Shown here: piece by piece, positions 6,342-59,878 of the stretch
Layout: every line of letters begins with the position of its first letter
Position numbering within the stretch: the first letter of the stretch is position 1
Source of the DNA: Vicinamibacterales bacterium
GTDB taxonomy: Bacteria; Acidobacteriota; Vicinamibacteria; Vicinamibacterales; UBA2999
Length of the DNA stretch: 59,878 nucleotides
NCBI GenBank assembly: GCA_030680175.1
Contig: JAUXWO010000067.1
Location: 1 to 59,878, forward strand
Direction of reading: 5' to 3'
Position numbers and translations under genes: made by a program
Notes under the pieces: generated by a model
Told to the model about the DNA's origin: nothing
Seen by the model: the letters and a program-made list of their open reading frames with translations, nothing else
The model's database searches: none

Positions 6342-9275
6342 GTGGTCAGTGCGGGCTTTCAGCCGGTGGCGGCGCGCGCCGCGGCGCTGCTCGAGCGTGG
6401 ACAGGGTGCGGCCGCCGTCGACCTGCTCACGCCCGTGCTCCAGTCCTCGTCGCTCCGGCGCGACGACGAACTGGGCCTCCGCAGCATCCTGGCGGAAGCC
6501 TGGCTGCTCCAGGGCGACCTCGCGCAGGCCAGCACGGCACTCGGCCGGTCGCCTGACACGCTCCGCGAGGCCATTCCCCCGGTCCTGCTCTCCACCCTCT
6601 GGCGGCTCCACGGCGTCGTCGCCTTCGGCCGCGGCGAGCAGTCGCGCGCCATTGCGCTGCACGGCCGCGCGCTGAAGCAGGCCGAGATCGCGCACGACTC
6701 GCGCGCCATCGGCCTGGCCCACTACGAACTGGGCCTCTGCTACAAGCGGGTCGGGGACGCCGCCATCGTCCGCGAGCACATCGCCGAGGCCGCGGCCGCG
6801 CTCCATGCGGCCGGGGACCGCCGCCACCTGGCACTCGTCCATCAGCTGTCCGGCGTGATGCTGGCGCAGACCGGCCGCTACGACGAAGCGATCGCCGCCC
6901 TCCGCCAGGCCGAACGGCTCGCGGCCGCCCTCCAGGCCGACGATGTCCTCGCGACGGTGTGCGGCAACCAGGCGAACGTGGCGCTGCTGCGCCATCGCTA
7001 CGATCAGGCGCTGACGCTCGCCGAGCGCTCCGTGTCGCTCCACGAGACGGTCGGACGCGGCCATGGCCTCGCCGTGGCGCTCGCCACGCTCGGGCAGATC
7101 TGCGTGCGCATCGGCCATCTGGACCGCGCCGAAGAGGCGCTGCACCAGGCGCTGAACGTCCGCAGCACGGTGATGGTCCACGAGCGGACGGGCGCCATCT
7201 ACGACACGCTCGCGCAGATGTCGCTGATGCGCGGCGACTACGAGAACGCCGCCGAGTACCTGCGCCGCGCGGCCGAGGCCTACGGCGCCTACGGCCGCCA
7301 GACCAGCCAGTGGTACGAGTGGTCGGTGCGCGCCATCACGGCGCGCCTCGCCATCCGGCGCGGTGAACCCGCGACGGCGCTCTCGATCGCCGAGGAGATC
7401 ATCCGCTCGGCCGACGCGCCGCCGGCCGAAGCGCTCGAAGCGGAGCTCATCTGCGCCGAGGCGCTGCTGGCCGCCGACCGCTCCGGCGAGGCCGAACAGC
7501 GTCTCAGCCAGGTCGAAAGCCGGCTCGATCCCCGCACGACGCCGGGCGCCTGGGGCGAGTTCCTGCGCCTCCGCGGGGAACTGAACACCCGCATCGGCAA
7601 GACGACCGAGGCGTACCACGACATCGCGCAGAGCTCCAGCGTCTTCGAACTGGTCGGCGAGCGGTACCAGGCCGCCGTCAGCCAGCTCGCGCTCGGCCGT
7701 CTGGCCGCGCGCGCCGGCGCACGTTCGACGGCGGACCGCCACTTCTCGAATGCCGCCGAGGTGTTCAAGTCGCTCGGCGCCGCGCGCGACCTCGAGAAAG
7801 CGCAGGAGGCCCTTGCCTCCTCCCAGACGCACGGCACCGGCGAGTACGTCGGCTCCCCGGCCGACGCCGACGATGCGCTGGTGCGGCGCCTCGTGGACGC
7901 GGCGATCATGCCGGACCTGCTCGCGCGGGAGTTGACGGCCGCGCTCATCGAGGCCGTGAGCGCGGACGTGGCGGTCGTCTTCACCGAGCTTCCGGGCCAT
8001 GACATTCGCGTCAGCGCGCACGCTGGCGCCGATCCCGAGGGCGCGCGCGCCGTGGCGCGCCTGGCGGTGCAGGGCGCCGGCTACGGGTCGGGCAGCCTCG
8101 TCGTCGAGCCGATCGGCCGCGACGTGGACGGGCCGCGCGCCGTGGCGGTCGCGTCCGCGCGCCCGCTCGGGCCGCACCTGCTCCGCCGCATCCGGATGAT
8201 GGCCGCCGTCGGCCGCCAGGGCTTCGCGCTCTGCGGCGCACGCGAGCGTCCCGTCCAGGCCGCCGACCTGACGACCGAGCGGCCGCTCGAGCCGCTGCTC
8301 CCCGGCTTCGTCTGCGCCAGTGCGGCGATGCACCGCGTCGTCGATCAGATTCAACGCCTGCAGGGCAACGACCTCACCGTGCTCATCACCGGTGAGAGCG
8401 GCACGGGCAAGGAACTCGTCGCGCGCGCGATCCACGTGGGGTCGCCGCGGAGCGCGGCGATGTTCCTGCCGTACAACTGCACGACGACCACCCGCGAGCT
8501 GGCCGACAGCCAGCTGTTCGGCCACCGCCGCGGCGCGTTCACCGGCGCGGTGAGCGACCAGCCCGGACTCGTGCGCACGGCGGCGGGCGGCACCCTGTTC
8601 CTCGACGAAGTCGGCGACCTGCCGCTCGACGTCCAGCCGAAGCTGCTGCGCTTCCTCGAGCACGGCGAGGTGATGCCGGTCGGCGAGACGCGGCCGCAGG
8701 CCGTGGATGTACGCGTGATCACCGCCACCAACGCCGATCTCGAGCAGCGCGTGGCGGAGGGCAAGTTCCGCGAGGACCTCTACTACCGGCTGAGCGTGAT
8801 CCGCATCCACGTGCCGCCGCTCCGGCAGCGGCGCGAGGAGATCCCGCACCTGAGCACGTTCTTCCTGCGCGATGCGGCCGAGCGCCTGGGCAAGCCGGAC
8901 GTGCAGTTGAGCTCGGACGTCCTCGACCTCTTCTCGCAGTACTACTGGCCGGGCAACGTGCGGCAATTGCGGAACGAGATCCAGCGCGCGGTGGCCATGT
9001 CGGCGCCCGGGGGCGTCATCGGCCCCGACCATCTCTCCCCGGATCTGACCTCGGAGCCGCCGGCCGGCGTCACAGCGGTCGCCGGCGAGTCTCGGCCGAG
9101 CCTGCGGGGTGGCCAGACGCTGGCCTCGGTCGTGGACGACGTGGAGCGCGAGCTGATCCGGGAGACGCTGGCCAAGCACCGGGGCAATATCTCGGAGTCG
9201 GCGCGGTCGCTCGGGCTGACCCGGCGTGGACTCTACCTGAAGCTGCGGCGCCTCGGCCTCGAAACACCCGCCTAA
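6342..9275 (+). CDS. TPR-containing sigma-54-dependent transcriptional activator
   Basis: 977 residues. About residues 1-510 are helical TPR-like repeats; 520-650 resemble a GAF-type sensor; 650-890 form the AAA+ sigma-54 interaction domain with Walker A GESGTGKE, the sigma-54 contact loop GAFTGA (about residue 730) and Walker B GGTLFLDEVGDL. The last 45 residues are a Fis-type helix-turn-helix (ISESARSLGLTRRGLYLKLR). There is no receiver domain, so it is not a classical response regulator; input probably comes through the TPR/GAF part. The GTG at 6342 is the longest start; GTG at 6366 is an alternative, because a TATACT lies only 5 bases before 6342. Confidence 0.93.
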   Translation: MVSAGFQPVAARAAALLERGQGAAAVDLLTPVLQSSSLRRDDELGLRSILAEAWLLQGDLAQASTALGRSPDTLREAIPPVLLSTLWRLHGVVAFGRGEQSRAIALHGRALKQAEIAHDSRAIGLAHYELGLCYKRVGDAAIVREHIAEAAAALHAAGDRRHLALVHQLSGVMLAQTGRYDEAIAALRQAERLAAALQADDVLATVCGNQANVALLRHRYDQALTLAERSVSLHETVGRGHGLAVALATLGQICVRIGHLDRAEEALHQALNVRSTVMVHERTGAIYDTLAQMSLMRGDYENAAEYLRRAAEAYGAYGRQTSQWYEWSVRAITARLAIRRGEPATALSIAEEIIRSADAPPAEALEAELICAEALLAADRSGEAEQRLSQVESRLDPRTTPGAWGEFLRLRGELNTRIGKTTEAYHDIAQSSSVFELVGERYQAAVSQLALGRLAARAGARSTADRHFSNAAEVFKSLGAARDLEKAQEALASSQTHGTGEYVGSPADADDALVRRLVDAAIMPDLLARELTAALIEAVSADVAVVFTELPGHDIRVSAHAGADPEGARAVARLAVQGAGYGSGSLVVEPIGRDVDGPRAVAVASARPLGPHLLRRIRMMAAVGRQGFALCGARERPVQAADLTTERPLEPLLPGFVCASAAMHRVVDQIQRLQGNDLTVLITGESGTGKELVARAIHVGSPRSAAMFLPYNCTTTTRELADSQLFGHRRGAFTGAVSDQPGLVRTAAGGTLFLDEVGDLPLDVQPKLLRFLEHGEVMPVGETRPQAVDVRVITATNADLEQRVAEGKFREDLYYRLSVIRIHVPPLRQRREEIPHLSTFFLRDAAERLGKPDVQLSSDVLDLFSQYYWPGNVRQLRNEIQRAVAMSAPGGVIGPDHLSPDLTSEPPAGVTAVAGESRPSLRGGQTLASVVDDVERELIRETLAKHRGNISESARSLGLTRRGLYLKLRRLGLETPA

Positions 9276-22244: not shown

Positions 22245-22372
22245 CGTGCGCACAAACACGTCCGCCTCCGCGGCCGAAGGCCGCTACGGCGAGACCTCGC
22301 CGTAGCTCGCCAGTGCGTTATCTGCGAGCGGAGGCGGGAAGGACACGAAGGACACGAAGGTCCACACAAAGG
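22243..22372. repeat. One-armed 9-bp (ACACGAAGG) array interrupted by a GC-rich element
   Basis: After the AlkB-like stop the DNA reads CAAACACG, then a 79-bp GC-rich element (22261-22339), then AAGGACACGAAGGACACGAAGG. Removing the element restores a continuous 9-bp-period array. Unlike the copies near 40-43 kb, no inverted right arm is seen. It lies immediately 5' of the tRNA gene. Confidence 0.75.
22261..22339. mobile_element. Small GC-rich element with terminal inverted repeats, copy 1
   Basis: About 79 bp bounded by TCCGCCTCCGC and its imperfect complement GCGGAGGCGGGA, with an internal segment (GGCCGCTACGGCGAGACC) nearly identical to a second copy at 40679-40755. It encodes no protein. 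It looks like a small non-autonomous or REP-like element. Confidence 0.7.
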
Positions 22373-22412: not shown

Positions 22413-22501
22413 GCCGGGGTGGCGAAACTGGCAGACGCACGGGACTTAAAATCCCGAGGCCCGCAAGGGCCGTGTGGGTTCGACCCCCACCCCCGGCACC
22501 A
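22413..22501 (+). tRNA. tRNA-Leu (UAA anticodon)
   Basis: 89-base type II tRNA. The acceptor stem GCCGGGG (22413-22419) pairs with CCCCGGC (22491-22497), followed by discriminator A and an encoded CCA (22499-22501). The anticodon stem CGGGA/TCCCG closes the loop CTTAAAA, giving anticodon TAA. A long variable arm (GGCCCGCAAGGGCC) is typical of leucine tRNA. The T-arm GTGGG-TTCGACC-CCCAC is perfect. Confidence 0.97.
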
Positions 22502-22516
22502 CATCGTCGACGGGGA

Positions 22517-22607
22517 TCGGCTATCGGCTATCGGCTACCAGCTATCGGCTATCAGCAATCAGCAATCAGCAATCAGCAATCAGCGATCAGCGATCGGCGA
22601 TCGGCCA
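22517..22607 (+). repeat. Thirteen 7-bp units (TCGGCTA/TCAGCAA type)
   Basis: Exactly 13 heptads without interruption, for example TCGGCTA three times, TCAGCAA four times, TCAGCGA, TCGGCGA and TCGGCCA. It starts 16 bases after the tRNA. The same heptad family occurs near 26.2, 41.3 and 44.5 kb. Confidence 0.9.
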
Positions 22608-22618
22608 CTGCTCGACAC

Positions 22619-22674
22619 AAGCTGAAGGCTGAACGCCGAAAGCTGAAAGCCGAAAGCCGAGAGCTGGTCGCTGA
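22619..22674 (-). repeat. Eight 7-bp units in inverted orientation (AAGCCGA type)
   Basis: Heptads AAGCTGA, AGGCTGA, ACGCCGA, AAGCTGA, AAGCCGA twice, GAGCTGG, TCGCTGA. They are largely the reverse complement of the TCGGCTT/TCAGCTT unit, so together with the preceding array they can form a long imperfect hairpin just upstream of the DUF302 gene. Confidence 0.85.
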
Positions 22675-26217: not shown

Positions 26218-26273
26218 TCGGCTCTCGGCTCTCGGCTATCAGCTTTCGGCTTTCGGCTTTCGGCTTTCGGCCA
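26218..26273 (+). repeat. Eight 7-bp units (TCGGCTT/TCGGCTC type)
   Basis: Uninterrupted heptads TCGGCTC, TCGGCTC, TCGGCTA, TCAGCTT, TCGGCTT three times, TCGGCCA. The array begins 14 bases upstream of the DinB start codon on the opposite strand, so it occupies that gene's promoter region. Confidence 0.9.
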
Positions 26274-26331
26274 CCCCACTACGCCGTTTGCCTTCTGTCA
26301 TTTTGCACTCTGCATCCTGCGCCCCGCCCCC

Positions 26332-26393
26332 CCCACTACCCACTACCCACTACCCACTACCCACTACCCACTACCCACCACCCACTACCCACT
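26332..26393 (+). repeat. 7-bp CCCACTA tandem array
   Basis: About nine copies of CCCACTA with single-base variants (one CCCACCA), just after the stop of the MATE gene on its strand. It is preceded by the short T/C-rich stretch 26281-26330 with no gene. Same period as the other heptads but a different unit. Confidence 0.85.
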
Positions 26394-34066: not shown

Positions 34067-34181
34067 GGGTGCTCAAGGTGCCCTCGGTGCTCAGGGTGCT
34101 CAGGGTGCTCAGGGTGCCCGGGGTGCCCGGAGTGCCCAGGGTGCCCGGAGTGCCCAGGGTGACCGGAGTGCCCGGGGTGCG
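34067..34181 (+). repeat. 9-bp tandem tract, GGTGCTCAG/GGTGCCCAG orientation
   Basis: About 12 imperfect 9-base units (GGTGCTCAG, GGTGCCCGG, AGTGCCCAG and similar). Read on the other strand they equal the GGGCACCTT/GAGCACCCT units of the next tract, so the two form a giant inverted repeat with a spacer of about 65 bp. Confidence 0.9.
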
Positions 34182-34246
34182 GCTGCCTGCCGGGATTATT
34201 GACACTGAGTGCCTGACCACGGCAACCCACTCGAACATCCACGCCC

Positions 34247-34543
34247 AGCACCTTGGGCACCCTGGGCACCTTGGACACCCTGAGCACCCTGAGCACCCTG
34301 AGCACCTTGGGCACCTTGGGCACCATGGGCACCTTGGGCACCTTGGGCACCTAGGGCACCGTGGGCACCCTGAGCACCCTGAGCACCCTGGGCACTCTGG
34401 GCACCTTGGGCACCTTGGGCACCCTGAGCACCCTGAGCACCCTGAGCACCCTGGGCACCCTGGGCACCTTGGGCACCTTGGGCACCTTGGGCACCCTGGG
34501 CACCCTGAGCACCCTGAGCACCTTGAGCACCTTGAGCACCCTG
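34247..34543 (+). repeat. 9-bp tandem tract (GGGCACCTT/GAGCACCCT), about 33 units, abutting the carboxylase start
   Basis: Nearly 300 bp of 9-base units that differ only at two or three positions. The last unit ends one base before the ATG of the carboxyltransferase gene, so there is no normal ribosome site. All three frames on both strands stay open through it (Gly-Thr-Leu, Val-Pro-Lys and Gly-Ala-Gln repeats), a consequence of the 9-base period rather than of coding. Confidence 0.92.
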
Positions 34544-36971: not shown

Positions 36972-38479
36972 TTTCACGTGTCCTCATCGCGAATCGCGGC
37001 GAGATCGCGCTGCGCATCATCCGCGCCTGCCGTGAGCTGGGCGTGGAGACGGTCGCGGTCTACTCCGACGCCGACCAGGCGGCGCCGCACGTGCTGGCCG
37101 CCGATCATGCCGTGCGCCTCGGGCCTGCGCCGCCGGCCGAAAGCTACCTCAATATCCCCGCCCTGCTCGACGCGGCGCGTGTGAGCGGCGCCGATGCGGT
37201 CCACCCCGGGTACGGCTTCCTCTCGGAGCGCGCGCGCTTTGCGCGTGCGGTGGAAGAGGCCGGCCTGATCTTCGTCGGCCCGCCGGCGGACGCGATCGAA
37301 CGCATGGGCTCGAAGATCGGCGCGCGGGCCATCATGCAGGAGGCCGGCGTGCCCGTCGTGCCCGGCGAGGCCCCGGAGGACCAGTCCGACGCGTCGCTCG
37401 CCGCCGCGGCCGAACGCATCGGCTTCCCCGTCCTGATCAAGCCCTCGGCCGGGGGCGGCGGGATCGGCATGAAGGTGGTGCGCGAGACCGCCGGCCTCGG
37501 TGACGCGCTGCAGGCGGCCCGTCGCGAGGCGCTGGCCGCCTTTGGCGACGGGACGATCTACGTGGAGCGGCTGGTCGAGCGTCCGCGGCACGTCGAGATC
37601 CAGGTCTTCGCTGACGCCCACGGCCACGCCGTGCACCTCTTCGAGCGGGAGTGCTCCGTCCAGCGCCGCCACCAGAAGACGATCGAGGAGAGCCCCTGCC
37701 CGGTGCTCACCCCCGCCCTGCGCGAGCAGATGGGCGCCGCGGCGGTGGCGGCCGCGCGGGCCGCCGGCTACCGCAACGCCGGCACCGTGGAGTTCCTGCT
37801 CGACGGCGAGGGCGCCGACGCGCGGTTCTACTTCCTCGAGATGAACACGCGGCTGCAGGTCGAGCATCCCGTGACCGAGTGCGTCGTGGGCGTCGACCTC
37901 GTGCACGCGCAGATCCTCGTGGCCGGGGGCGCGCCCCTGCCGTGGTCCCAGGCCGATCTCACGCAGCGCGGTCACGCCATCGAGTGCCGCATCTACGCCG
38001 AGGATCCCGCGCAGGCGTTCCTGCCGCAAGCCGGCCCGCTGCTGCTCTACCGCGAGCCGCAGGGCCCTGGCATCCGCGTCGACTCTGGCGTGGTGGAAGG
38101 CGGTGAGGTCTCCGTCTATTACGACCCGATGCTCGCCAAGCTGATCGTGTGGGGCGAGACGCGCGAGCGCGCCCGCGCCCGCGCCATCGCCGCGCTGCAG
38201 GAGTACCCCGTGCTCGGCATCCGCACCAACATCCCGTTCCTGCTGGCCATCCTGCGGCACGAGCGGTTCGCGGAGGCGACCATCGACACCGGGTTCCTCG
38301 ACGTCAACGGCGCGGACATCGCCCGCGAGGCGGCCGAGGGCGGCCTTCCCGACGCCGCGTTCGCCGCGGTGTCCATGCACGGCACCCTGGGCACGATGGG
38401 CACCGTGGGCACCCCGGGCACCTCGGGCACTGTGAGCCCCCTGGATCCCTTCACGACACTGACGGGCTGGCGAGGCTGA
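36968..38479 (+). CDS. liuD: Acyl-CoA carboxylase biotin carboxylase subunit (methylcrotonyl-CoA carboxylase alpha, without carrier domain)
   Basis: 503 residues from a GTG. Biotin-carboxylase motifs: VLIANRGEIALRIIRACRE, HPGYGFLSE, the Gly-rich ATP-grasp loop SAGGGGIGMKVV, RDCS-like ERECSVQRRHQK, and EMNTRLQVEHPVTE. It ATP-dependently carboxylates biotin. Unlike usual MccA (about 660 residues) it has no biotin domain; that is a separate downstream gene. The last 34 or so residues are unusual: a Gly-Thr repeat encoded by 9-bp tandem DNA (38379-38430), which looks like repeat intrusion into the 3' end. Confidence 0.93.
   Translation: MISRVLIANRGEIALRIIRACRELGVETVAVYSDADQAAPHVLAADHAVRLGPAPPAESYLNIPALLDAARVSGADAVHPGYGFLSERARFARAVEEAGLIFVGPPADAIERMGSKIGARAIMQEAGVPVVPGEAPEDQSDASLAAAAERIGFPVLIKPSAGGGGIGMKVVRETAGLGDALQAARREALAAFGDGTIYVERLVERPRHVEIQVFADAHGHAVHLFERECSVQRRHQKTIEESPCPVLTPALREQMGAAAVAAARAAGYRNAGTVEFLLDGEGADARFYFLEMNTRLQVEHPVTECVVGVDLVHAQILVAGGAPLPWSQADLTQRGHAIECRIYAEDPAQAFLPQAGPLLLYREPQGPGIRVDSGVVEGGEVSVYYDPMLAKLIVWGETRERARARAIAALQEYPVLGIRTNIPFLLAILRHERFAEATIDTGFLDVNGADIAREAAEGGLPDAAFAAVSMHGTLGTMGTVGTPGTSGTVSPLDPFTTLTGWRG
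38379..38430 (+). repeat. 9-bp GGGCAC-type units inside the biotin carboxylase C-terminus
   Basis: Five to six 9-base units (GGCACCCTG, GGCACGATG, GGCACCGTG, GGCACCCCG, GGCACCTCG) in the reading frame, encoding Gly-Thr-Leu-Gly-Thr-Met-Gly-Thr-Val. The unit is the same as in the long tract before liuB. Confidence 0.85.
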
Positions 38480-38481
38480 CC

Positions 38482-38955
38482 GTGACGACGATGGAGATTC
38501 GGCTCGAGGAGACGACGACGCGGGTCACGATCGGACCTGACGGGCAGGTGGAGATCGCGGACGCGGCGTATGTGGTGACGCGGGTCTCGTCCGGCATCTA
38601 CCGCGTCACGAGCGGCGATCGACGCTGGACGGTGGCGGTCGCGGGACCGGCCGACGCGCGGTGGGTCTCGGTGAATGGCCGGGTGGCGGTGGTCGACACC
38701 ACGCCGGCCACGTCGGCCCGCCGGCGCACGAAGAGCGGCGGCCACGATTCGACGGCCGCGCCCATGCCGGCGACCGTCGTGAAGATCCTCGTCGAGCCGG
38801 GCGCAACGGTGGCCAAGGGCGACACGCTGCTCGTGCTGGAGGCCATGAAGATGGAGCTGCCGATCCGCGCGCCACGCGACGGTGTCGTCAAGTCGATTGC
38901 CTGCCAGGCCGGTCAACTGGTCCAGCCCGGCGTCAACCTGCTGGAGTTCGAGTAG
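38482..38955 (+). CDS. Biotin carboxyl carrier protein of the acyl-CoA carboxylase
   Basis: 157 residues from a GTG 2 bases after the carboxylase stop (GAGG ribosome site nearby); ATG at 38491 is an alternative. The C-terminal 75 residues form a biotinyl domain with the biotinylation site EAMKMEL (Lys123). The N-terminal half is a beta-rich extension. It replaces the C-terminal carrier domain that is normally fused to the biotin carboxylase. Translationally linked to both neighbours. Confidence 0.9.
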   Translation: MTTMEIRLEETTTRVTIGPDGQVEIADAAYVVTRVSSGIYRVTSGDRRWTVAVAGPADARWVSVNGRVAVVDTTPATSARRRTKSGGHDSTAAPMPATVVKILVEPGATVAKGDTLLVLEAMKMELPIRAPRDGVVKSIACQAGQLVQPGVNLLEFE

Positions 38956-39848
38956 TGGCGCGGCCGGCGCGCGTCACGCTCGTCGAGGTGGGGCCGCGCG
39001 ACGGCCTGCAGAACGAGAAGGCCACGATCCCCACGGGTGCCAAGATCGCGTTTGTGGACGCGCTCGCGTCGGCCGGGCATCAGGTCATCGAGGTCTCCGC
39101 GTTCGTCTCGCCCAAGTGGGTGCCGCAGATGGCCGATGCGCGCGAGGTGTTCGCCGGCCTCACCCCGGCCCCGGGCGTGCGCTACACGGCCCTCGTGCCG
39201 AATCTGGCGGGCCTCGAACGCGCCATGGCCGCCGGCGTCACCGAGGTCGCCATCTTCGCGGCGGCCTCCGAGACGTTCAGCCGCAGGAACATCAATCAGA
39301 GCATCGACGAGTCGCTCGCCACCTACCGGGCGGTCTGCGATCGCGCGCGGTCCGCGGGTGTGCGCGTGCGCGGCTACCTCTCCACCTGCTTCGGCTGTCC
39401 GTTCGAAGGCGCCATCGCCCCGGCCGCCGTGGCGGAGGCCGCCGCGCGGCTGCTCGATCTCGGCGTGTTCGAGGTGGCGATCAGCGACACGATCGGCATC
39501 GCGCACCCCGGCCAGATCCCCGGCGTCCTCGACGCGGTGACGGCGCGCGTGCCGTTGCCGCAGGTCGCGCTGCACTTTCACGACACGCGCGGCACGGCCC
39601 TCGCGAACGTCCTCGCCGGCCTCGACTACGGCGTCACCACCTACGACAGCTCAGCCGGCGGCCTCGGCGGCTGCCCCTACGCCCCGGGCGCCGCGGGCAA
39701 CCTCGCCACCGAAGACCTGCTCTACATGCTCGACGGCCTCGGCATCGAGACGGGCGTGTCGATCGACGGCGTGATGGCCGCCTCGCTCGCCATCGAACCC
39801 CACCTCGACCATCCCCTCCCCTCCCGCTACGTCACGGCGACCCGCTGA
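38955..39848 (+). CDS. liuE: Hydroxymethylglutaryl-CoA lyase
   Basis: 297 residues from a GTG overlapping the carrier TAG by one base (TAGTG). TIM-barrel of the DRE family: VEVGPRDGLQNEKA, FVSPKWVPQMAD, YLSTCFGCPFEGA, metal site ALHFHDTRGTALAN, and the catalytic Cys loop GGLGGCPYAPGAAGN. It splits HMG-CoA to acetoacetate and acetyl-CoA, the last step of leucine degradation. Final gene of the operon; a palindromic repeat starts 4 bases downstream. Confidence 0.95.
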   Translation: MARPARVTLVEVGPRDGLQNEKATIPTGAKIAFVDALASAGHQVIEVSAFVSPKWVPQMADAREVFAGLTPAPGVRYTALVPNLAGLERAMAAGVTEVAIFAAASETFSRRNINQSIDESLATYRAVCDRARSAGVRVRGYLSTCFGCPFEGAIAPAAVAEAAARLLDLGVFEVAISDTIGIAHPGQIPGVLDAVTARVPLPQVALHFHDTRGTALANVLAGLDYGVTTYDSSAGGLGGCPYAPGAAGNLATEDLLYMLDGLGIETGVSIDGVMAASLAIEPHLDHPLPSRYVTATR

Positions 39849-39851
39849 TCA

Positions 39852-39979
39852 CGGACAAACACGAAGGACACGAAGGCCACGAAGGCTCTCTTCAGGGCGT
39901 TCGGGCCGGAACCCGATGCGAGCGCGTGGCATCCTGATGAGTCTCTTCGTGACCTTCGTGTCCTTCGTGTTTTGTACGT
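39852..39979. repeat. Palindromic element with 9-bp-period arms, copy A
   Basis: Left arm CAAACACGAAGGACACGAAG and one further unit; right arm CTTCGTGACCTTCGTGTCC then TTCGTGTTTTGTAC. The arms are complementary apart from a few positions, and enclose about 58 unrelated bases. Lies between the HMG-CoA lyase stop and the DUF4159 start. Confidence 0.85.
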
Positions 39980-40006
39980 TTCGCACTCTGCGGTACGATC
40001 GCTGCC

Positions 40007-40654
40007 ATGCAGGCTGCCACGGGACGTCCGCGCGCGCATGAGTTCGTGTTCGCGCGGCTGAGGTACGACTCCGGCGACTGGGAGTACAACCCCAAGGTCG
40101 CCGCCAATGTCCTCAACTCCGTGGTCGAGTACACGCAGATCCCCGTGTACCCGGAGGAGATCGTCATCACGGCCGACTCGGCCGAGCTTGGCGCCTTCCC
40201 GTTCCTGTTCATGACGGGCCACAAGCTCGTCCGCTTCTCGAGCCGCGAGCGCGAGGGCCTGCGCCGCTACGTCGAACAGGGCGGGCTGCTCTTCTCCGAC
40301 GACTGCAATCACGATGTGGCGGGCCTCTACGCCGTGTCGTTCGAGCAGGAGATGCAGGCGGTCTTCCCCGAGCCGGGCACGCTCGACAAGCTGCCCAACA
40401 CCCACCCGCTGTATCGCACCTTCTTCGCGTTCCCCGACGGCCCCCCGCAGACCGTCCACGAACTGAACGGCTGGGGCGACGACATGGTGCACGACTACCT
40501 GAAGGCCGTCGAGCATCGCGGCCGGATCGGCGTGCTCTACTCGAACAAGGACTACGGCTGCGAGTGGGACTACGACTGGCGCAACAAGCGCTTCCGCCGC
40601 GACGACAACACGCAGTTCGCCGTCAACATCGTCGTCTACGCGATGTCAGCCTGA
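40007..40654 (+). CDS. DUF4159 domain protein
   Basis: 215 residues with the DUF4159 appearance: EFVFARLRYDSGDWEYNPKV at the start, LFMTGHKLVRFSSREREGLRRYVEQGGLLFSDDC in the middle, then a conserved NGWGDDMVHDYLKA and NKDYGCEWDYDW. The fold resembles glutamine-amidotransferase-like domains often found with MoxR/BatA clusters. It has no signal peptide and the function is unknown. It is flanked by palindromic elements on both sides and opposes the TldD/MoxR genes. Confidence 0.9.
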   Translation: MQAATGRPRAHEFVFARLRYDSGDWEYNPKVAANVLNSVVEYTQIPVYPEEIVITADSAELGAFPFLFMTGHKLVRFSSREREGLRRYVEQGGLLFSDDCNHDVAGLYAVSFEQEMQAVFPEPGTLDKLPNTHPLYRTFFAFPDGPPQTVHELNGWGDDMVHDYLKAVEHRGRIGVLYSNKDYGCEWDYDWRNKRFRRDDNTQFAVNIVVYAMSA

Positions 40655-40875
40655 CACGTACAAAACACGAAGGACACGTCCGCCTCCGCGGCCGGAGGCC
40701 GCTACGGCGTGACCTCGCCGAAGCTCGCCTGATCCTGAGGCGAGCGGGGGCGGGAAGAAACGAAGGACGCACGAAGAAACTCTTCTGCTATGGATCCGGT
40801 GACCGCTACCGGATCCCTGAAGTCGTCTATCGTGCGTCTTCGTGGCCTTCGTGGCCTTCGTGTTTGTACGTAACA
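40655..40875. repeat. Palindromic 9-bp-period element, copy B, carrying a nested GC-rich element
   Basis: Left arm ACGTACAAAACACGAAGG, then the 77-bp GC-rich element, then more array (AAACGAAGGACGCACGAAG); right arm CTTCGTGGCCTTCGTGG with TTCGTGTTTGTACGT. The right arm is part of the convergent PH-like gene and encodes its C-terminus. Confidence 0.85.
40679..40755. mobile_element. Small GC-rich element with terminal inverted repeats, copy 2
   Basis: About 77 bp beginning TCCGCCTCCGCGGCCG and ending GCGGGGGCGGGA, highly similar to 22261-22339 except in the 15-20 bases before the right end. Both copies sit between CACG and AAG of a 9-bp unit. Confidence 0.7.
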
Positions 40876-41294
40876 GCCTTCTCGACGGCGCGGGCAAGTT
40901 CGCGGGGTTCGTCGGTGCCGATGCGAAGCGTGATGCCGTTCTGCTGCGCCACGCGGATGGCGTCGACGCCGGCGACGTTGTAGAGCCAGCCATCCGGGGT
41001 GATGCGGATGCCCCAGCCCCACCACCAGGAATTCCGCACGGGCTCGACCGACGTGATCGCCGCCAGCGGGATGCGCGTCCGCCAGAAGCCGCCGCCGAAC
41101 CAGAAGCGCAGTTCGCCGCCGTCCACTTCGGTCGTCAGGCGCGAGAAGATGAGCGGCACGGGCAGCACCGCCCCGAGGATCGCGGCCGGCACCCAGGGCA
41201 CGGCCGGGGACGCCAGCATCGCCGCCACCCCCAGTGCCTGAACGCCGGCAATCCCCAGCGCCAGGCGGCTCACCTGTGTGTGCCGGTAGGCCAT
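40827..41294 (-). CDS. Bacterial PH-like membrane protein
   Basis: 155 residues: two membrane helices (about 8-45), then a PH-like beta domain (GELRFWFGGGFWRTRIPLAA, SVEPVRNSWWWGWGIRI, TLRIGTDEPRELARAVEKA). It resembles bPH2-type proteins of unknown function. The last 14 residues, TYKHEGHEGHEDAR, are encoded by the right arm of a palindromic 9-bp repeat, so the natural C-terminus was probably extended by repeat insertion. GTG at 41300 is an alternative start. Confidence 0.75.
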   Translation of the reverse strand: MAYRHTQVSRLALGIAGVQALGVAAMLASPAVPWVPAAILGAVLPVPLIFSRLTTEVDGGELRFWFGGGFWRTRIPLAAITSVEPVRNSWWWGWGIRITPDGWLYNVAGVDAIRVAQQNGITLRIGTDEPRELARAVEKAVTYKHEGHEGHEDAR

Positions 41295-41307
41295 CGTCAC
41301 TCGCCTG

Positions 41308-41356
41308 TCAGCGATCAGCTTTCAGCTATCAGCTATCAGCGGCCGGCTCTCGGCTC
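41308..41356 (+). repeat. Seven 7-bp units (TCAGCTA type)
   Basis: TCAGCGA, TCAGCTT, TCAGCTA, TCAGCTA, TCAGCGG, CCGGCTC, TCGGCTC, just upstream of the PH-like gene start and adjoining the 9-bp hairpin at 41357. Confidence 0.85.
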
Positions 41357-41396
41357 ACGTACAAACACGAAGGACGTGACCTTCGTGTTTGTCCGT
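41357..41396. repeat. Minimal hairpin form of the 9-bp palindromic element, copy C
   Basis: ACGTACAAACACGAAGG, a 6-base loop, then CCTTCGTGTTTGTCCGT: a 17-bp stem with one mismatch. It is the shortest copy, showing the conserved tips of the family. It lies 16 bases after the TldD stop on that gene's strand and could act as its terminator. Confidence 0.88.
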
Positions 41397-41412
41397 GATC
41401 TCCGTTGCCCGC

Positions 41413-42993
41413 CTACGAGTACGCCGCCCCCACCATGATGCGGCGGATCCGCATCCACGGCGAGCCGTGCGACGGGTGGTTGATCTGCACGGGCTGGCCC
41501 TTGGCGTCGCCCGTCGTGCCGAACATCTCCCACGAGTCCTTCCCCGTCACGGCGTCGAGGTTGTTCCAGAAGTCCGTGGTGATGGCGTTGTAGGTGACGT
41601 CGCTCAGCATGCGCGTCCGCTTGCCGTCCTTGATCTCCCAGAACGCATCGCCGCCGAACTGGCCGTTGTAGCGCTGCTGGTCGATCGAGTAGCTGCCGCG
41701 GCCGTCGATGAGGATGCCGTCCTTCGTGTCGGCGATCAGCTGCTCCGGCGTGGGCGACCCGGCCGGGCCGGCGTCCACGTGCAGGTTCGGCATCCGCAGG
41801 AACGGGAAGTTCCGCCACGAGGTGGCGAACGTGCACCCGCGGGAGAAGTTCTGGTTCATGAAGTGCGCGGTTTCCCGGTTGGTCTGCAGGTCGATCAGCT
41901 TTCCTTCGCGGATGATCGGCCACTCCTGCGACTTCACCCCGTCATCGTCGTACCCCACCGTGCACATGCCGCCCGGCAGCGTCCGGTCGCACGTGACGTT
42001 GAGGTGCTTGGACCCGATGACGGCCTTGCCGACGTCCTCGAGCTTGATGAAGCTCGTCCCGGCGTAGTTGGCCTCGAAGCCGACGACGCGGTCGAGTTCC
42101 GTCGGGTGGGCGATGATCTCGTGGATCGTGAGCATCGCGTGCGACGGCGTCATGATGATGTCCTTGAGCCCCGCCCCCGCCGGCGGCGCCGTGCAGTGCT
42201 CGGCCGCTTCGGCGCAGATCCGCTCGACGTTGTCGAGCATCTTCGCGTCGAGGGCGACTTCGTAGCCGGCCGACTTCGGCGCCACGGTGAACGTCCGCGA
42301 CTTCACCTTGCCGCCCTTCCGCGCCGTGACGGTGAAGCCCGGCGCCGTCCGCCAGATCTCCTGCTCGAGGTAGGAGCCCTCGGAGGTGGCCAGGTACTTC
42401 CACTCGTGGTCGAAGGCAATCTGCGCCTGCACGCGGATGATGTCGGGCTGCTTGAGGGCGGCCTCGGTGATCTGCATCAGGAACTGGATCTTCTCGTCGA
42501 GCGAGACGTCCTCGGGCTTCACCCGGACGGGCACCGTCCAGTAGTCGGTGTACGCGTCCACGGGCGACAGCCGGACGTCGAACTTCTTGGCCACGGCGCT
42601 CGCCCGTGCGACCTCGGACGCGCGCGCCGTGATCCGGCGGATCTCCGCCTCCGTGGCGATGGGGCTGCTGGCAAAGCCCCAGACGCCGCTGTGGATGACG
42701 CGCACGCCGAATCCGGCGCTCGTCCGCAGCCCGGCGCCGCCGAACCCGCCGCTGTCCACGACGATCTTGTCGCGCACGGCGACGCTGTCGTTGATGTTCC
42801 GGGTGAAGCGGATGTCGGCGTACGTGCAGCCGAGCCGTTTGGCCTCGGCCAGCGCCACATCGGACAGCCCCTTGTAGGCCGAGTCCAGCACGCGCCCCTG
42901 GGGCGACTGCGCGATCAGCCCGCCCATCAGGTCGCTCGCATAGAGCGCCACGCCGGTGGCGCTGAGCGTCTTGACGAAATCACGTCTCTTCAT
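41413..42993 (-). CDS. tldD: TldD-family metallopeptidase with twin-arginine-like signal
   Basis: 526 residues. The N-terminus MKRRDFVKTLSATGVALYAS has a Tat-like RRDFVK box and hydrophobic stretch. The catalytic zinc motif HEIIAH (TIHEIIAHPTELDR, near residue 290) is intact, followed by GTSFIKLEDVGK. TldD works with TldE as a heterodimeric protease of unfolded peptides. E. coli TldD is cytosolic, so the signal is unusual. The ATG at 42993 is preferred over the residues upstream. A paralogue lies 1.6 kb away, with tldE between. Confidence 0.9.
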   Translation of the reverse strand: MKRRDFVKTLSATGVALYASDLMGGLIAQSPQGRVLDSAYKGLSDVALAEAKRLGCTYADIRFTRNINDSVAVRDKIVVDSGGFGGAGLRTSAGFGVRVIHSGVWGFASSPIATEAEIRRITARASEVARASAVAKKFDVRLSPVDAYTDYWTVPVRVKPEDVSLDEKIQFLMQITEAALKQPDIIRVQAQIAFDHEWKYLATSEGSYLEQEIWRTAPGFTVTARKGGKVKSRTFTVAPKSAGYEVALDAKMLDNVERICAEAAEHCTAPPAGAGLKDIIMTPSHAMLTIHEIIAHPTELDRVVGFEANYAGTSFIKLEDVGKAVIGSKHLNVTCDRTLPGGMCTVGYDDDGVKSQEWPIIREGKLIDLQTNRETAHFMNQNFSRGCTFATSWRNFPFLRMPNLHVDAGPAGSPTPEQLIADTKDGILIDGRGSYSIDQQRYNGQFGGDAFWEIKDGKRTRMLSDVTYNAITTDFWNNLDAVTGKDSWEMFGTTGDAKGQPVQINHPSHGSPWMRIRRIMVGAAYS

Positions 42994-43027
42994 GAGAAAC
43001 CCCACCGCGGCTCACGGCCGCGCCGAA

Positions 43028-43169
43028 TACGTACAAACACGAAGGACACGAAGGCCACGAAGAACACCGAAAAGGAACGACACCCACTCAACGACGCCGT
43101 TGATGTCTCGCCGGCATGGAAACGGGATGTCCTGCTTCGTGGCCTTCGTGTCCTTCGTGTTTGGTACGT
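43028..43169. repeat. Palindromic 9-bp-period element, copy D
   Basis: Left arm TACGTACAAACACGAAGG plus two further units; right arm CTTCGTGGCCTTCGTGTCC then TTCGTGTTTGGTACGT, separated by about 65 unrelated bases. It lies between the tldE stop and the downstream TldD start. Confidence 0.85.
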
Positions 43170-43175
43170 GTCTGC

Positions 43176-44531
43176 CTACACCGCGGGCGAGATCGAGGTC
43201 ATCGTGAAGTCCTCGATCTTCATGGGCGGCACGAGGGCCGTCCCCGGGTTGTCGTACGCCTCGCCCGTGTGCATCGGCACCGGCGCGCCCAGCATGGAGA
43301 TGTTGTTGAAGCCGACCGCCGGCCCATCGTTCCAGCGGAAGTTCTGGACCGGGCCGACAATCTCGCCGTTCTCGATCAGGAACAGCCCGTCGCGCGTCAT
43401 CCCCGTGTAGAGGAGCGTCATCGGGTCCACGCCGCGGATGTACCAGAAGAACGACACCAGCAGGCCGCGCTTGGTCGTCTTGATCATCTCCTCGACCGTC
43501 GCCGTGCCGCCGTCCATCACCAGGCTCATGTTGGCCGTGGTGGCCGTCGGCGCCTTCTTCTGCCGCTCCGCCCAGTAGCGCGAGTAGAAGAGGTTCTTCA
43601 CGACGCCCTTCTCGATCCAGGTCACGTCGCGGGCGGCCAGGCCGTCCTCGCCCACCGGCGACTGGCGCAGGATGGGGTTGCCGATGTGGCTGCGCAGCGT
43701 CACGTTGTCGCCGAACACCTTCTGGCCGATCTTGGTCTCGCCGCGCTCCTTGCCGCTCATGAAGCTCCGGCCTTCCTCGGCCGCGCGTGCGTCGAGCGAC
43801 CCCAGCATCAGCTGCAGGAAGCGCGCGGCCGGACGCGGCTCGAGCACGACGGTGTAGCGGCCCGGCTCCACGGCGCGGGGCTTGCGCGACTGGAGCGCCT
43901 TGCGCGCCGCCACCTCGCTCAGCCCGCGGGCGTCGATGTTGCCGATGTCCTTCACGCCCGTCGTCCCCGCCCACCCCGACCCCGTCTGGTCGGGGGTGCG
44001 GCACGTCAGGATGAAGCTGGCATCCGCGTAGCGGAAGTAGGAGAACAGGCCCTCCGAGTTCGCGGTCGCCTCGGTCCAGTGGAACTTCGGGATGTAGCCG
44101 GCGCCCAGCACGCCGAGCTTCTCGCACACCTCGACGCTCTGCCGCACCATCTCGGCGCGCTCGCCCGGGCCGAAGTTCACGGCCGACGGCAGCGCCGCCT
44201 CGACGTCGAGGTACTCCTGCGGCGGCTTGACCGGCGGCATCAGCTCCGGGTTGTCGGGCCGCCGCTTCGCCAGCGCCTGCACGGCCTCGATGGTGCGCTT
44301 GAGCGACGCGTCATCGAACTGGTGCGTCGTCGCCGATGCGCTCTTCTGGCCGTAGTAGACGGTGATGTTGACCTGCTGATCGTTCTCGATCAGGTTGGCC
44401 GTGATGCTCGAGTTGGCAAACCGGGTGGCCGACCGCTCGCCACCCGAGAAGGCCACCTCGACGGCATCGGCCTGGCACATGTTCATCACCTTGTCGGTGA
44501 TCTGCTTGACTTCGTCGCGGGAGTAACTCAT
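43176..44531 (-). CDS. tldE: TldE/PmbA-family protein
   Basis: 451 residues, typical TldE length. N-terminal half with AVEVAFSGGERSATRFANSS and a C-terminal modulator domain (GNPILRQSPVGEDGLAARD, WYIRGVDPMTLLYTGMTRDG, FRWNDGPAVGFNNISMLG). Like other TldE subunits it lacks the HExxxH site and would support a TldD partner. It has no signal peptide, in contrast with both flanking TldD paralogues; if the complex is exported, TldE would need to travel with TldD or the complex stays inside. Confidence 0.92.
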   Translation of the reverse strand: MSYSRDEVKQITDKVMNMCQADAVEVAFSGGERSATRFANSSITANLIENDQQVNITVYYGQKSASATTHQFDDASLKRTIEAVQALAKRRPDNPELMPPVKPPQEYLDVEAALPSAVNFGPGERAEMVRQSVEVCEKLGVLGAGYIPKFHWTEATANSEGLFSYFRYADASFILTCRTPDQTGSGWAGTTGVKDIGNIDARGLSEVAARKALQSRKPRAVEPGRYTVVLEPRPAARFLQLMLGSLDARAAEEGRSFMSGKERGETKIGQKVFGDNVTLRSHIGNPILRQSPVGEDGLAARDVTWIEKGVVKNLFYSRYWAERQKKAPTATTANMSLVMDGGTATVEEMIKTTKRGLLVSFFWYIRGVDPMTLLYTGMTRDGLFLIENGEIVGPVQNFRWNDGPAVGFNNISMLGAPVPMHTGEAYDNPGTALVPPMKIEDFTMTSISPAV

Positions 44532-57886: not shown

Positions 57887-58046
57887 GTGGCTATTCGCTG
57901 GTCGCTATTCGCTGGTCGCTGGTCGCAATTCGCTGTTCACTGTTCGCTTTTCGCCGTTCGCTGTTCACTGTTCGCTATTCGCTGTTCGTTGTTCGTTGTT
58001 CGTTGTTCCAAATCTGCAATCTGCAATCTGCCATCTGCAATCTGCA
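57887..58046 (+). repeat. Long mixed 7-bp array (TTCGCTG / TCTGCAA types)
   Basis: About 23 uninterrupted heptads: TTCGCTG/GTCGCTG/TTCACTG/TTCGTTG changing to TCTGCAA. The whole span keeps a strict 7-base period. It fills the gap between the ADOP start and the potassium-channel stop and ends one base before that stop codon. Confidence 0.9.
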
Positions 58047-58047
58047 A

Positions 58048-59769
58048 TCAGATCGGCCCTGTCTTCGCGGCGCCGTAGGTCTCCGTGAACGCCGCGCGCT
58101 GCTCCAGGCTGCCCATCATCACGAGCACCGCGCCCGCGGGCAGCACGGTCTCGGAGTGCAGCTCCGTGTTGAACTGGTCGCCGTCCTGCACCGCCATCAC
58201 GCACAGGCCCGTGAGCGAGCCGATGGCGCCGTCCTTCAGCGTCCGGCCGGCGAGCGCCTGCGGCACGGTGCGGGTGAACAGATCCACGCCCTCGCCGAGG
58301 ATCACCAGTTCGTGTCCGCGCAGGCGCGAGAAGATCGCCTCGGCGCCGAGCGAGGCGTAGCTCAGGACGAAGTCGGCGCCGGCGCGGTGGATGGCCTCGA
58401 CGTTGCGATCGTGCGTGACGCGGCTCACGATCCGCAGATCGGACTTCAACCGGCGGCAGTACACCGCCAGGTAGATGTTCATCGCATCGTCGTTGGTCGT
58501 CAGGAGGACGGAGGGCGCGTCCTGCAGGCCGGCCTTCGTCAGGGTCCTGCGGTCGGCGGCATCGCCTTCCGTGAGCCGGTCTGCGATGCCCTCGAGCGGA
58601 TAGAGGGACCGCCGGTCTCGGTCCAGCACGTGCGTGCGGATGCCCTTGGCATGCAGCACCTCCACGGCGGCCTGCCCGACACGCCCGGCGCCAATCACCA
58701 GCACGGGGCGGTCCACCTCGCCCGACGGCGGCAGGAGTCCGTTCAGCGTCGCGACCTGCTCCGCATCGCCCGCCACGACGACCACGCTGCTCTCGGCGAT
58801 TACCGTGTTGGGATAGGCCGGCTTCAGCCGCCCGCGCTCCCAGACGCCGACGACGCTCATGCCGGTCGTCTCGCGCATGCGCGTGTCTCGCACGGTCTGT
58901 CCGGCAAACGGCGTGCCTCGCGCCGGGAGTTCCGCCACCTGCAGGGTCCGGTAGGTGCCCACCACATGGGCCTCGATGCGCCCCGTGTCCACGCGGTTGG
59001 CCAGGTAGGCGCCAAGCTGCTGCTTGAGGGGCAGGACGTAGGTGGCGCCGCTCAACTGCAGCACATCGACGGCGTCCGGCTCCTCGACGATGGCAAGGAT
59101 GGGCACCTGCGCCGACACCTCGCGCACGGTGAGGGTGATGTTGGTGTTGGTCGTGTCCTCGCGGTTGACCACGACGAGCCGCGCCTGCTCCACCTCGAGG
59201 TTCTGGTAGGTCTCCTTGCTGTCGATCTCCCCGGTCACCGCGGAGATCCCCTCGCCGGTCAGCTGCGCGGCGCGCGCCGGGTCCGGCTCGATGACGAAGT
59301 ACGCCTGCCCTGCGGCCTTGAGCCGGCCGATCAGCCCGGCGGCCACGGCATCGTATTCGGTGATGATGACGTGGTCGCGCGTGCCGGCCTCGACCTGGCG
59401 CGGCGCGCGCATGCGCATCCGCGCCTCGAGCCACGGCGCGTAGAACAGGCGGATGAACAGGAACGGCAGCATGACGAGCAGGAACACGACGCCCGACATG
59501 ATCACCACCACGCTGAAGGCGCGGCCGACATCGGTGCGGAACACGATGTCACCGAACCCGAGCGTGCTCATCGTCACGACGGTCCAGTAGAGCCCGGAGA
59601 TCCACGAGTGCTCCTGCCCTTCGAGGCGGAACATGATCAGGTGGAAGAGCACGGTGTAGAGCGCCACCATCGCGACGAGGAACGCAATGTATTGGAGGAG
59701 GCCGCGCAGGTTGGTGCGCATCTCCCGCTCGGTGAAGAAGAAGGCGAGCTGGCTCGGCAGGTACTTCAT
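58048..59769 (-). CDS. Potassium channel with two RCK (TrkA-N) domains
   Basis: 573 residues from the ATG at 59769. Two membrane helices (LRGLLQYIAFLVAMVALYTV and AFSVVVIMSGVVFLLVMLPF) flank the selectivity filter TVVTMSTLGFGD. Two Rossmann-type RCK regions follow: the first has a poor nucleotide motif (IITEYDAVAAGLIGRL), the second is canonical (VLVIGAGRVGQAAVEVL); a final TrkA-C-like part ends the protein. It gates K+ in the inner membrane. A longer frame to 59871 would use codons from the terminal palindrome and is rejected. Confidence 0.93.
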   Translation of the reverse strand: MKYLPSQLAFFFTEREMRTNLRGLLQYIAFLVAMVALYTVLFHLIMFRLEGQEHSWISGLYWTVVTMSTLGFGDIVFRTDVGRAFSVVVIMSGVVFLLVMLPFLFIRLFYAPWLEARMRMRAPRQVEAGTRDHVIITEYDAVAAGLIGRLKAAGQAYFVIEPDPARAAQLTGEGISAVTGEIDSKETYQNLEVEQARLVVVNREDTTNTNITLTVREVSAQVPILAIVEEPDAVDVLQLSGATYVLPLKQQLGAYLANRVDTGRIEAHVVGTYRTLQVAELPARGTPFAGQTVRDTRMRETTGMSVVGVWERGRLKPAYPNTVIAESSVVVVAGDAEQVATLNGLLPPSGEVDRPVLVIGAGRVGQAAVEVLHAKGIRTHVLDRDRRSLYPLEGIADRLTEGDAADRRTLTKAGLQDAPSVLLTTNDDAMNIYLAVYCRRLKSDLRIVSRVTHDRNVEAIHRAGADFVLSYASLGAEAIFSRLRGHELVILGEGVDLFTRTVPQALAGRTLKDGAIGSLTGLCVMAVQDGDQFNTELHSETVLPAGAVLVMMGSLEQRAAFTETYGAAKTGPI

Positions 59770-59802
59770 GATGACGACCGCCAAGTCTACCCTGGAGGGG
59801 TC

Positions 59803-59878
59803 TGGCACCGTGACATCGAAAACGTGGCAGATTCCGCCATATGGCGGAATCTGCTTCGTTTTCGATGTCACGGTGCCA
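59803..59878. repeat. 76-bp palindrome at the window end
   Basis: Symmetric about 59840/59841: 36 of 38 positions pair, with only two mismatched bases 15-16 positions from the centre. The outer arm starts TGGCACCGTGACATCG and the centre is CCGCCATATGGCGG. The window stops on its last base. Resembles REP-type palindromes; no transposase is visible. Confidence 0.9.

Follow-up and report, generated by a model that had tools for sequence, protein, structure and literature searches.

Palindromic elements of the window and their family

The window, that is, the whole stretch of 59,878 nucleotides that was analysed (assembly GCA_030680175.1, contig JAUXWO010000067.1), is contig C101 of the 4.98-Mb genome of a Vicinamibacterales bacterium of the phylum Acidobacteriota, hereafter the source genome. 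Within 3.4 kb, beside a DUF4159 gene and two PmbA/TldD-family genes, it holds four palindromic intergenic elements with arms built from tandem copies of the 9-base unit ACACGAAGG (Table 1). The subject of this analysis is the family to which these palindromes belong and its relation to genes of the GxxExxY nuclease family, which lie between arms of the same kind in the source genome and in relatives. All four copies announced by a sequence-only reading of the window are present, with limits at most 4 bases from those first stated. The unit occurs 15 times in the window, one occurrence (41721) lying outside any copy, whereas shuffled sequences gave a mean of 0.31 and at most 2. In the four copies, the main arms pair with 88, 94, 95, and 100% complementarity, and the predicted RNA folds are far more stable than expected for copy 1 (129 nt, z of -9.3), copy 4 (139 nt, -9.0), and copy 3 (40 nt, -5.4). 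The shortest copy had been described as a clean 17-bp hairpin; its fold consists of 16 pairs and one mismatch. The one-armed version reported at 22.2 kb indeed shows no right arm, but its first unit is not intact, being split at CACG^AAGG by a repeat of 76-78 bp. A scan of the whole window against Rfam returned only a tRNA above threshold and no Rfam family for the elements. A chance or coding origin of the elements is ruled out by the shuffle counts and their intergenic placement.

Table 1. Palindromic elements of the window and the repeat inserted in one of them (positions of the window).
Feature	Position	Strand	Remarks
Palindromic element, copy 1	39851-39979		Ends ACGGAC / GTACGT; 2 bp past the stop of the upstream gene (called 38955-39848)
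Palindromic element, copy 2	40656-40871		1 bp past the stop of the DUF4159 gene (40007-40654); contains the 76-bp insert
76-bp inserted repeat (TCCGCCTCCGCGG...GCGGGGGCGGG)	40679-40754	+	Splits unit 2 of copy 2 at CACG^AAG
Palindromic element, copy 3	41357-41396		Shortest copy, 40 bp
Palindromic element, copy 4	43029-43169		Limits by eye; between two PmbA/TldD-family genes (41413-43005 and 43176-44531)
One-armed copy	22248-22360	+	Unit 1 split by an inserted repeat (22261-22338); left limit by eye

The elements are not unique to this region, an outcome that the sequence-only reading had named as one that would count against it: the tandem 17-mer CACGAAGGNCACGAAGG, made of two units, was found 218 times in the source genome (122 + 96 on the two strands), and its reversed control not once. 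Stretches were sampled around the listed places on contigs C5 to C77 (of 181 places), around five further 17-mer places, and around three genes for Y1 transposases. These stretches and the window yielded 58 palindromes as well as 9 one-armed sites, the latter being counted only if they had at least two units. One of these one-armed sites is in fact the left arm belonging to a gene-bearing copy that is described below. Extrapolation gives a total of about a hundred copies in the source genome. Both inverted ends are intact in 41 of the 58 palindromes, which are 40-314 bp long (median 140 bp). The ends are very sharp and follow the consensus ACG[T/G/C]AC. Its A, C, and G are each retained in all but a few ends (52 or 53 of the 54 on the left, 52 or 53 of the 56 on the right); the fourth position is usually T or G, and the sequence beyond the ends is nearly random. 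Along an arm, two ACACGAAGG units are followed by CCACGAAG. Among 21 elements with lengths of 115-165 bp, conservation reaches 80-99% in most columns of the arms, and the centre retains a degenerate palindrome about GGATCCGGTTCCGAACCGGATC (identity 0.562 vs 0.512 in shuffled sequences). Left and right arms of one element co-vary weakly (identity 0.716 within vs 0.693 between elements, permutation p 0.03).

A GxxExxY nuclease gene between the arms

In genome G024, which belongs to the same family as the source genome, the long loop of one copy (locus L112) holds a gene for a protein of 132 amino acids that matches TIGR04256 (GxxExxY) and PF13366 (PDDEXK_3) with E values of 5e-41 and 3e-41. A tblastn search over the fetched loci placed GxxExxY genes also in the source genome (L077; profile matches with E values of 2e-36 and 3e-36) and in genome G376 (L236 and three overlapping loci). 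The genes of L112 and L236 lie between + and - CACGAAG arms. A single GxxExxY gene was detected in the source genome by profile (E <= 1e-6), and the tblastn gene at L077 9409-9804 is taken to be the same one. The element that encloses it (L077 9354-9933, 580 bp) ends in ACGTAC/GTACGT and carries a 76-bp insert in its right arm. The source genome thus contains both short palindromes with inverted termini and no coding capacity and a longer coding element that shares their ends, as is expected of miniature inverted-repeat transposable elements (MITEs).

The enclosed genes belong to a family, GxxExxY / PDDEXK_3 (TIGR04256, PF13366), that is known by its motif. The D, E, and K of the PD-(D/E)XK signature are catalytic residues. 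In all 57 proteins compared, D76, E86, and K88 as well as G34, E37, and Y40 (L112 numbering) are invariant, and these residues argue for an active nuclease. A secondary profile match to UPF0102, below the cut-off, and a weak Cas4-like score of one of three proteins in a library of defence systems would fit a nuclease acting on branched or single-stranded DNA, although such scores prove nothing. A search by sequence for a solved structure of a GxxExxY relative returned none. In the literature searched, which included few subscription journals, there was no paper on the 17-mer family and no function or repeat link for GxxExxY/PDDEXK_3; the name GxxExxY appears there only in passing, in other settings.

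The 76-bp repeat seen in the coding element is itself recurrent. Sixteen copies lie in the sampled stretches, which were chosen around elements: two in the window (Table 1) and 14 in other loci of the source genome. Its boundaries fall at the same point of the unit, with CACG on the left in 16/16 and AAG on the right in 15/16, the sixteenth (L074) being aligned over only 46 of 76 bases. In seven full elements with such an insert, the inserts are 92.5% alike, but the centres of these elements agree only at about the level of shuffled sequences (0.458 vs 0.444 on average, with one pair at 0.694), and the outer arms and the centres therefore seem to differ in history. The repeat may have inserted with target specificity, or it may be a module carried along as the arms spread.

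Enclosure of GxxExxY genes across the phylum

Of 396 genomes of the phylum, 137 have a TIGR04256 match, as opposed to none of 14 named control genomes. A first set of 70 loci was assembled from 30 returned by the search and 40 more from the best-scoring part of the match list. One was omitted from the inverted-repeat test because its flanks were too short. Among the remaining 69, an inverted repeat of at least 11 bp spans the gene in 48, vs 3 of 414 shifted windows, and one of at least 14 bp in 31, vs 0 of 414. The same test gave 2/47 for small genes of the source genome, one of the two being flanked by elements on both sides. In 44 of the 48 loci, the gene-spanning repeat is longer than any palindrome within either flank, so that the gene lies in one loop rather than between two palindromes.

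Most of the arms inspected consist of unit arrays, with units like CACAGAG, CACGGAG, CGCAGAG, CACCGAT, and CGCAGAT. With L077, L112, and L236 added, the unit C[AG]CNNA[GT], a motif chosen on these same loci, stands on both sides of the gene in hairpin orientation in 57/73 loci, vs 5/73 in the opposite orientation and 2/141 shifted windows. A further set comprised 20 other genes from the match list, 16 of which lie in genomes that belong to a single family (f38). Inspection by eye found that many genes of this set without the unit have arrays of different units on one side (ACAGGATTA, ACAGTGATG, CGCGAATGG). A sequence-blind rule was applied to both sets, in which an exact 7-mer must recur at a distance of 8-10 bp within a flank. 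It held on at least one side for 60/70 genes of the first set and 16/20 of the further set (single control windows, 19/137 and 4/38), and on both sides for 33/70 and 7/20. Recurrence at 11-13 bp was seen on at least one side in 17/70 and 5/20. The association of GxxExxY genes with tandem arrays is therefore firm, and enclosure by matching arms is not universal. Because the units are spaced by 8, 9, or 10 bases, autocorrelation of the flanks at nine bases is uninformative on average (0.314 vs 0.303). A strict run test returned few arrays, nearly all at lags of 8-10 and none in controls.

GxxExxY-like matches were also found in seven plasmid records, three of which were examined. On a plasmid of Gemmatirosa kalamazoonensis, a (GACGCAGAG)n palindrome adjoins the gene. 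On one of Sphingomonas parapaucimobilis (L324 995-1423), the gene lies between fabD and fabG with a left array only (ACGCGAAGG-like), just before the gene. On a Persicobacter plasmid, neither palindrome nor array was seen at the GxxExxY-like gene.

Co-variation of unit and protein, and gene-less palindromes in other genomes

The arm unit follows the protein. For this comparison, a tree was built from 57 proteins, 16 of the 73 genes being left out because they lack a shared unit; it was built by a quick method, and its deep branches are poorly supported (28 of 54 inner branches open). Unit types change 26 times on this tree, vs a mean of 38.6 when shuffled (0 of 200 shuffles as low). Among single positions of the unit, position 7 (G or T) changes 2 times vs 8.5, position 4 changes 13 vs 20.8, and position 5 changes 7 vs 11.9 (0/300 each), with position 2 at 10 vs 14.1 (4/300). 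Identity of proteins and identity of units are correlated (0.452), a value reached in 0 of 1000 permutations after removal of redundancy at 80% (5 of 57 removed, 52 left). Four genes of the further set have the unit, and in three of them it is correctly predicted from the closest first-set protein. Paralogues within one genome can carry different units, e.g., CACGAAG and CACGGAG in G024, and CACGGAG and CACAGAT in G398. The co-variation suggests either that the protein recognizes the unit or that arms and gene share a common descent as one element; in both cases, they would be inherited as a single unit.

Gene-less palindromes occur in other genomes as well. A 400-kb sample of G398 holds six tandem-unit palindromes at five places (two overlap); in five of the six the unit is CACGGAG, which is also found at one of the GxxExxY genes of that genome. 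The sample of G121 holds ten, two with the CGCAGAT unit that belongs to one of its genes and five with CACCAAG, and that of G026, which has no GxxExxY gene among the matches listed, holds none. The reversed motif gave 0 in all three samples. Across the phylum, GxxExxY was detected in 31 of 45 genomes with the CACGAAGG 17-mer vs 106 of 351 without it, and in 16 of 17 genomes with at least five 17-mer matches vs 121 of 379 others.

Position at gene ends

Placement was assessed on 420,532 bases with gene calls from a home-made codon-usage caller (88% coding). None of the 67 element sites lies in a called gene, so that the elements are not part of a conserved coding sequence, the other outcome that the sequence-only reading had named as counting against it. 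The sites fall in 28 convergent, 38 codirectional, and 1 divergent gaps, vs 21, 108, and 38 among element-free gaps of at least 30 bp (Fisher p 2e-6 for the convergent excess and 1e-5 for the divergent deficit). For full elements, the median distance in codirectional gaps (n = 20) is 11 bp to the stop upstream and 29.5 bp to the start downstream, and in convergent gaps (n = 20) it is 6 bp to the nearest stop. Placement 3' of genes is the pattern described for repetitive extragenic palindromes (REPs) in the part covered of PMC3733652.

The sequence-only reading had further proposed that the elements are mobile non-autonomous repeats or terminators. Their position at gene 3' ends fits a terminator, but no U-tract follows the stem: the right arm ends in TTTGTACGT or the like, and an intrinsic terminator is rejected. 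None of the four terminator-like matches in a scan is the 9-mer stem; one (43076-43101) lies within the loop of copy 4. A broader alternative is that the palindromes are structural elements under selection at gene ends, acting as 3' hairpins that shield or terminate transcripts arriving from either side, with recombination between copies as the means of spread and the nuclease gene as cargo. The absence from genes, the convergent excess, the short distances to stops, the very stable folds, and arms conserved around nearly random centres all agree with it. REPs are placed likewise, however, so that placement alone does not show function; in addition to the missing U-tract, presence at the same gap varies between species, and GxxExxY genes of other families are again surrounded by such arms, with the unit tracking the protein, something that a terminator would not require. 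This alternative is regarded as unlikely.

Presence and absence among relatives

The proposal of mobile non-autonomous repeats is supported by the copy number, the sharp ends, and orthologous gaps with and without copies. The comparisons of gaps are between species and genera. In L034 and L035, copy 4 is absent, and the corresponding gap is about 145 bp shorter than in the window; the genome of L034 matches G024 in its 17-mer places. L036 has a CACGAAGG element one gap further on, at a place without such an element in the window and in L035. The gap of copy 4 itself holds a different palindrome in L036 (AACCAACCTGGTTGCTCTC.., 8960-9050, reverse strand), and unrelated repeats thus use one gap. 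Four gaps were compared between G024 and its congeners. In the first, an element is present in G024 (L115) and absent from G239 (L225). In the second, there is none in G239 and G001, and CACGAAG palindromes with other centres lie in G324 and G376. In the third, no CACGAAG element was seen in G239, G001, G324, or G376, G324 having other units there (TCTGTGTCCTCGGTG..). In the fourth, a diverged element with a similar centre is kept in G239. Cut points cannot be fixed because the flanking intergenic bases are too diverged, and precise loss, rather than gain, may also account for the empty gaps. At L112 (3001-6291) in G024, the DNA flanked by two element copies is reversed with respect to its left neighbour when set against five congeners (L235-L239); palindromes of this kind may seed inversions.

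In other genera, the units are kept and the ends and centres differ, the centre in G024 being of the CGCCAGTGCTGC type and G002 and G021 having other ends. With the source genome included, a 17-mer is present in 17 of 40 genomes searched for both elements and Y1 transposases, and in 45 of 396 genomes of the phylum, where the reversed control gave a single match in six genomes. It is also present in 15 of 199 genomes of a second phylum (that of L057, recorded as Planctomycetota), with no match of the reversed control in the listed rows. A search of plasmid and phage records for DNA similarity to one element gave no match. Eighty-two stretches of viral contigs (L143-L222) hold the 17-mer, some repeatedly (L150, L165, L219); these contigs may be misassigned host DNA. 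GxxExxY relatives were found neither in viral contigs with the L112 protein as query nor, by tblastn with 70 domains, in the 17-mer-bearing stretches examined.

Comparison with known repeat systems

An inverted doublet with conserved ends, a variable spacer, and the capacity to form a hairpin defines REPs and REP doublets forming hairpins (REPINs), and the present elements have all of these. They also share high copy number, a 3' intergenic position, and a dedicated nuclease-type gene with the system of REPINs and REP-associated tyrosine transposases (RAYTs) as described in the parts covered of PMC3116915 and PMC3733652. They could accordingly be REPIN-like hairpins moved in trans by a Y1 (RAYT/TnpA_REP) transposase, with GxxExxY genes as passengers that landed in loops. 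No target duplication accompanies the elements: none of 41 full elements shares at least 5 flanking bases, and matches of 2-4 bases are at chance level. This, together with the inverted ends, the variable spacer, and the position behind stops, resembles REPs and REPINs; three Y1 genes are present in the source genome; and among the 40 genomes, 16 have both elements and Y1 genes, 1 elements only, 11 Y1 genes only, and 12 neither (Fisher p 0.002, Spearman 0.44, uncorrected for kinship and completeness). Yet none of the three Y1 genes of the source genome has an element of two or more units or a palindrome of this kind within about 8 kb, and two of them have repeats of another kind on their flanks, which are found again in the genome in either orientation. 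No Y1 gene adjoins an element among the places listed, the nearest by eye lying about 6.5 kb away (G014). Further, the unpaired GTAG or CGTC tag is absent from the 54 left and 56 right ends checked, the arms are tandem 9-base units, and the linked nuclease is of the PD-(D/E)XK type rather than of the HUH/Y1 type. Movement by a Y1 transposase thus appears quite improbable. The two Y1 genes flanked by other repeats (L109 and L110; e.g., GGGGTCTGGCACCGTG.., with a copy at 59797-59878 of the window) are possibly true RAYT/REP pairs.

The nearest precedent found for the architecture is that of the paired sites of classes 1-3 in Geobacter metallireducens (PMC2700814, in part), which likewise consist of tandem 7/8-base units on opposite strands at variable spacing in tens of copies. 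Their unit sequences differ, and they are read as regulator sites, with no nuclease named in the parts of the paper that were covered. Sites of this plan, with tandem units of 7-9 bases on opposite strands, have been proposed there to bind nucleoid proteins of the IHF/HU type, and the same could hold here. That proposal comes without a test in the parts covered, and it would leave both the placement at gene ends and the enclosed nuclease gene unexplained; it is considered very improbable.

MITEs are similar in being short and non-coding, with inverted termini and a longer coding copy with the same ends in the genome (here L077), and differ in that a target duplication is lacking here. To our knowledge, the gene in the coding copy belongs to no known transposase family.

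Other tandem-unit arrays of the window

Several other arrays share the tandem-unit plan. Directly behind a tRNA gene (22413-22498), inverted heptamer arrays, (ATCAGCT)n and (AAGCTGA)n, form another palindrome with tandem-unit arms at 22503-22666. At 34067-34543, two nonamer arrays, (GTGCCCAGG)n and (CCTGGGCAC)n, face each other across about 68 bp, and a GGCACC array akin to them sits inside a called coding region (38381-38441). More heptamer arrays lie at 26218-26393 (TCGGCTT, CCCACTA) and 57890-58049 (GCTGTTC, AATCTGC). The CCCACTA unit also builds a palindrome within the centre of one CACGAAGG element (L098).

Interpretation

The palindromes of the window are best explained as MITE-like, gene-less members of a mobile family whose coding members carry one GxxExxY gene between the same inverted arms, a reading to which a probability of about 0.58 is assigned. 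It rests on the shared ends, arms, and nested insert of coding and non-coding copies in the source genome, on the enclosure of GxxExxY genes elsewhere by inverted repeats that are mostly of related units, on the agreement between unit and protein tree, and on related species that lack copies at orthologous gaps.

Several observations weigh against this explanation. The source genome has one nuclease gene vs about a hundred copies. No GxxExxY gene was detected in 14 of the 45 genomes that contain the 17-mer, G399 with its 14 matches among them, and G001, G239, and G324 have GxxExxY without the CACGAAGG 17-mer. Ten loci from the second phylum hold no GxxExxY gene by tblastn. The CACCAAG arms that are commonest in the G121 sample occur at none of the three of its six GxxExxY genes that were examined. 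The genes examined come from the best-scoring part of the match list. In the further set, the unit rule held in 4/20 (1 opposite, 0/38 shifted) and an inverted repeat was found in 10/20 vs 26/442 controls, so that only the looser 7-mer rule held widely there (16/20). The presence of Y1 transposases also correlates with that of the elements. Finally, as no target duplication is seen, there is no clean proof of insertion.

From the sequence evidence assembled here, we infer that the nuclease may be what moves the palindromes. It would bind the array of units, as an extruded hairpin or as a single strand, and could cut at the foot of the hairpin, which would let arms and loop be copied or re-inserted. 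The last step is modelled on proposals for RAYTs and REPINs (PMC3116915, in part). Copies would persist mainly just behind stops because insertions elsewhere would be harmful, and copies at gene ends may also act as 3' hairpins in transcripts.

At about even odds, these elements represent a novel class of bacterial mobile DNA, in which a PD-(D/E)XK gene lies in a hairpin of 8-10 base units and is accompanied by a swarm of gene-less copies, as a counterpart of REPINs and RAYTs on an unrelated nuclease fold. The unit (e.g., ACACGAAGG, ACACAGAGG, ACACGGAGG, ACACCGATG, or ACGCAGATG) would serve as an address that co-evolves with its nuclease, so that several addresses could coexist in one genome. 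If GxxExxY proteins do read tandem-unit arms, a family known only by its motif would gain a role, a class of unexplained intergenic repeats would gain a cause, and naturally varying pairs of nuclease and unit could help to explain how a small PD-(D/E)XK enzyme reads DNA.

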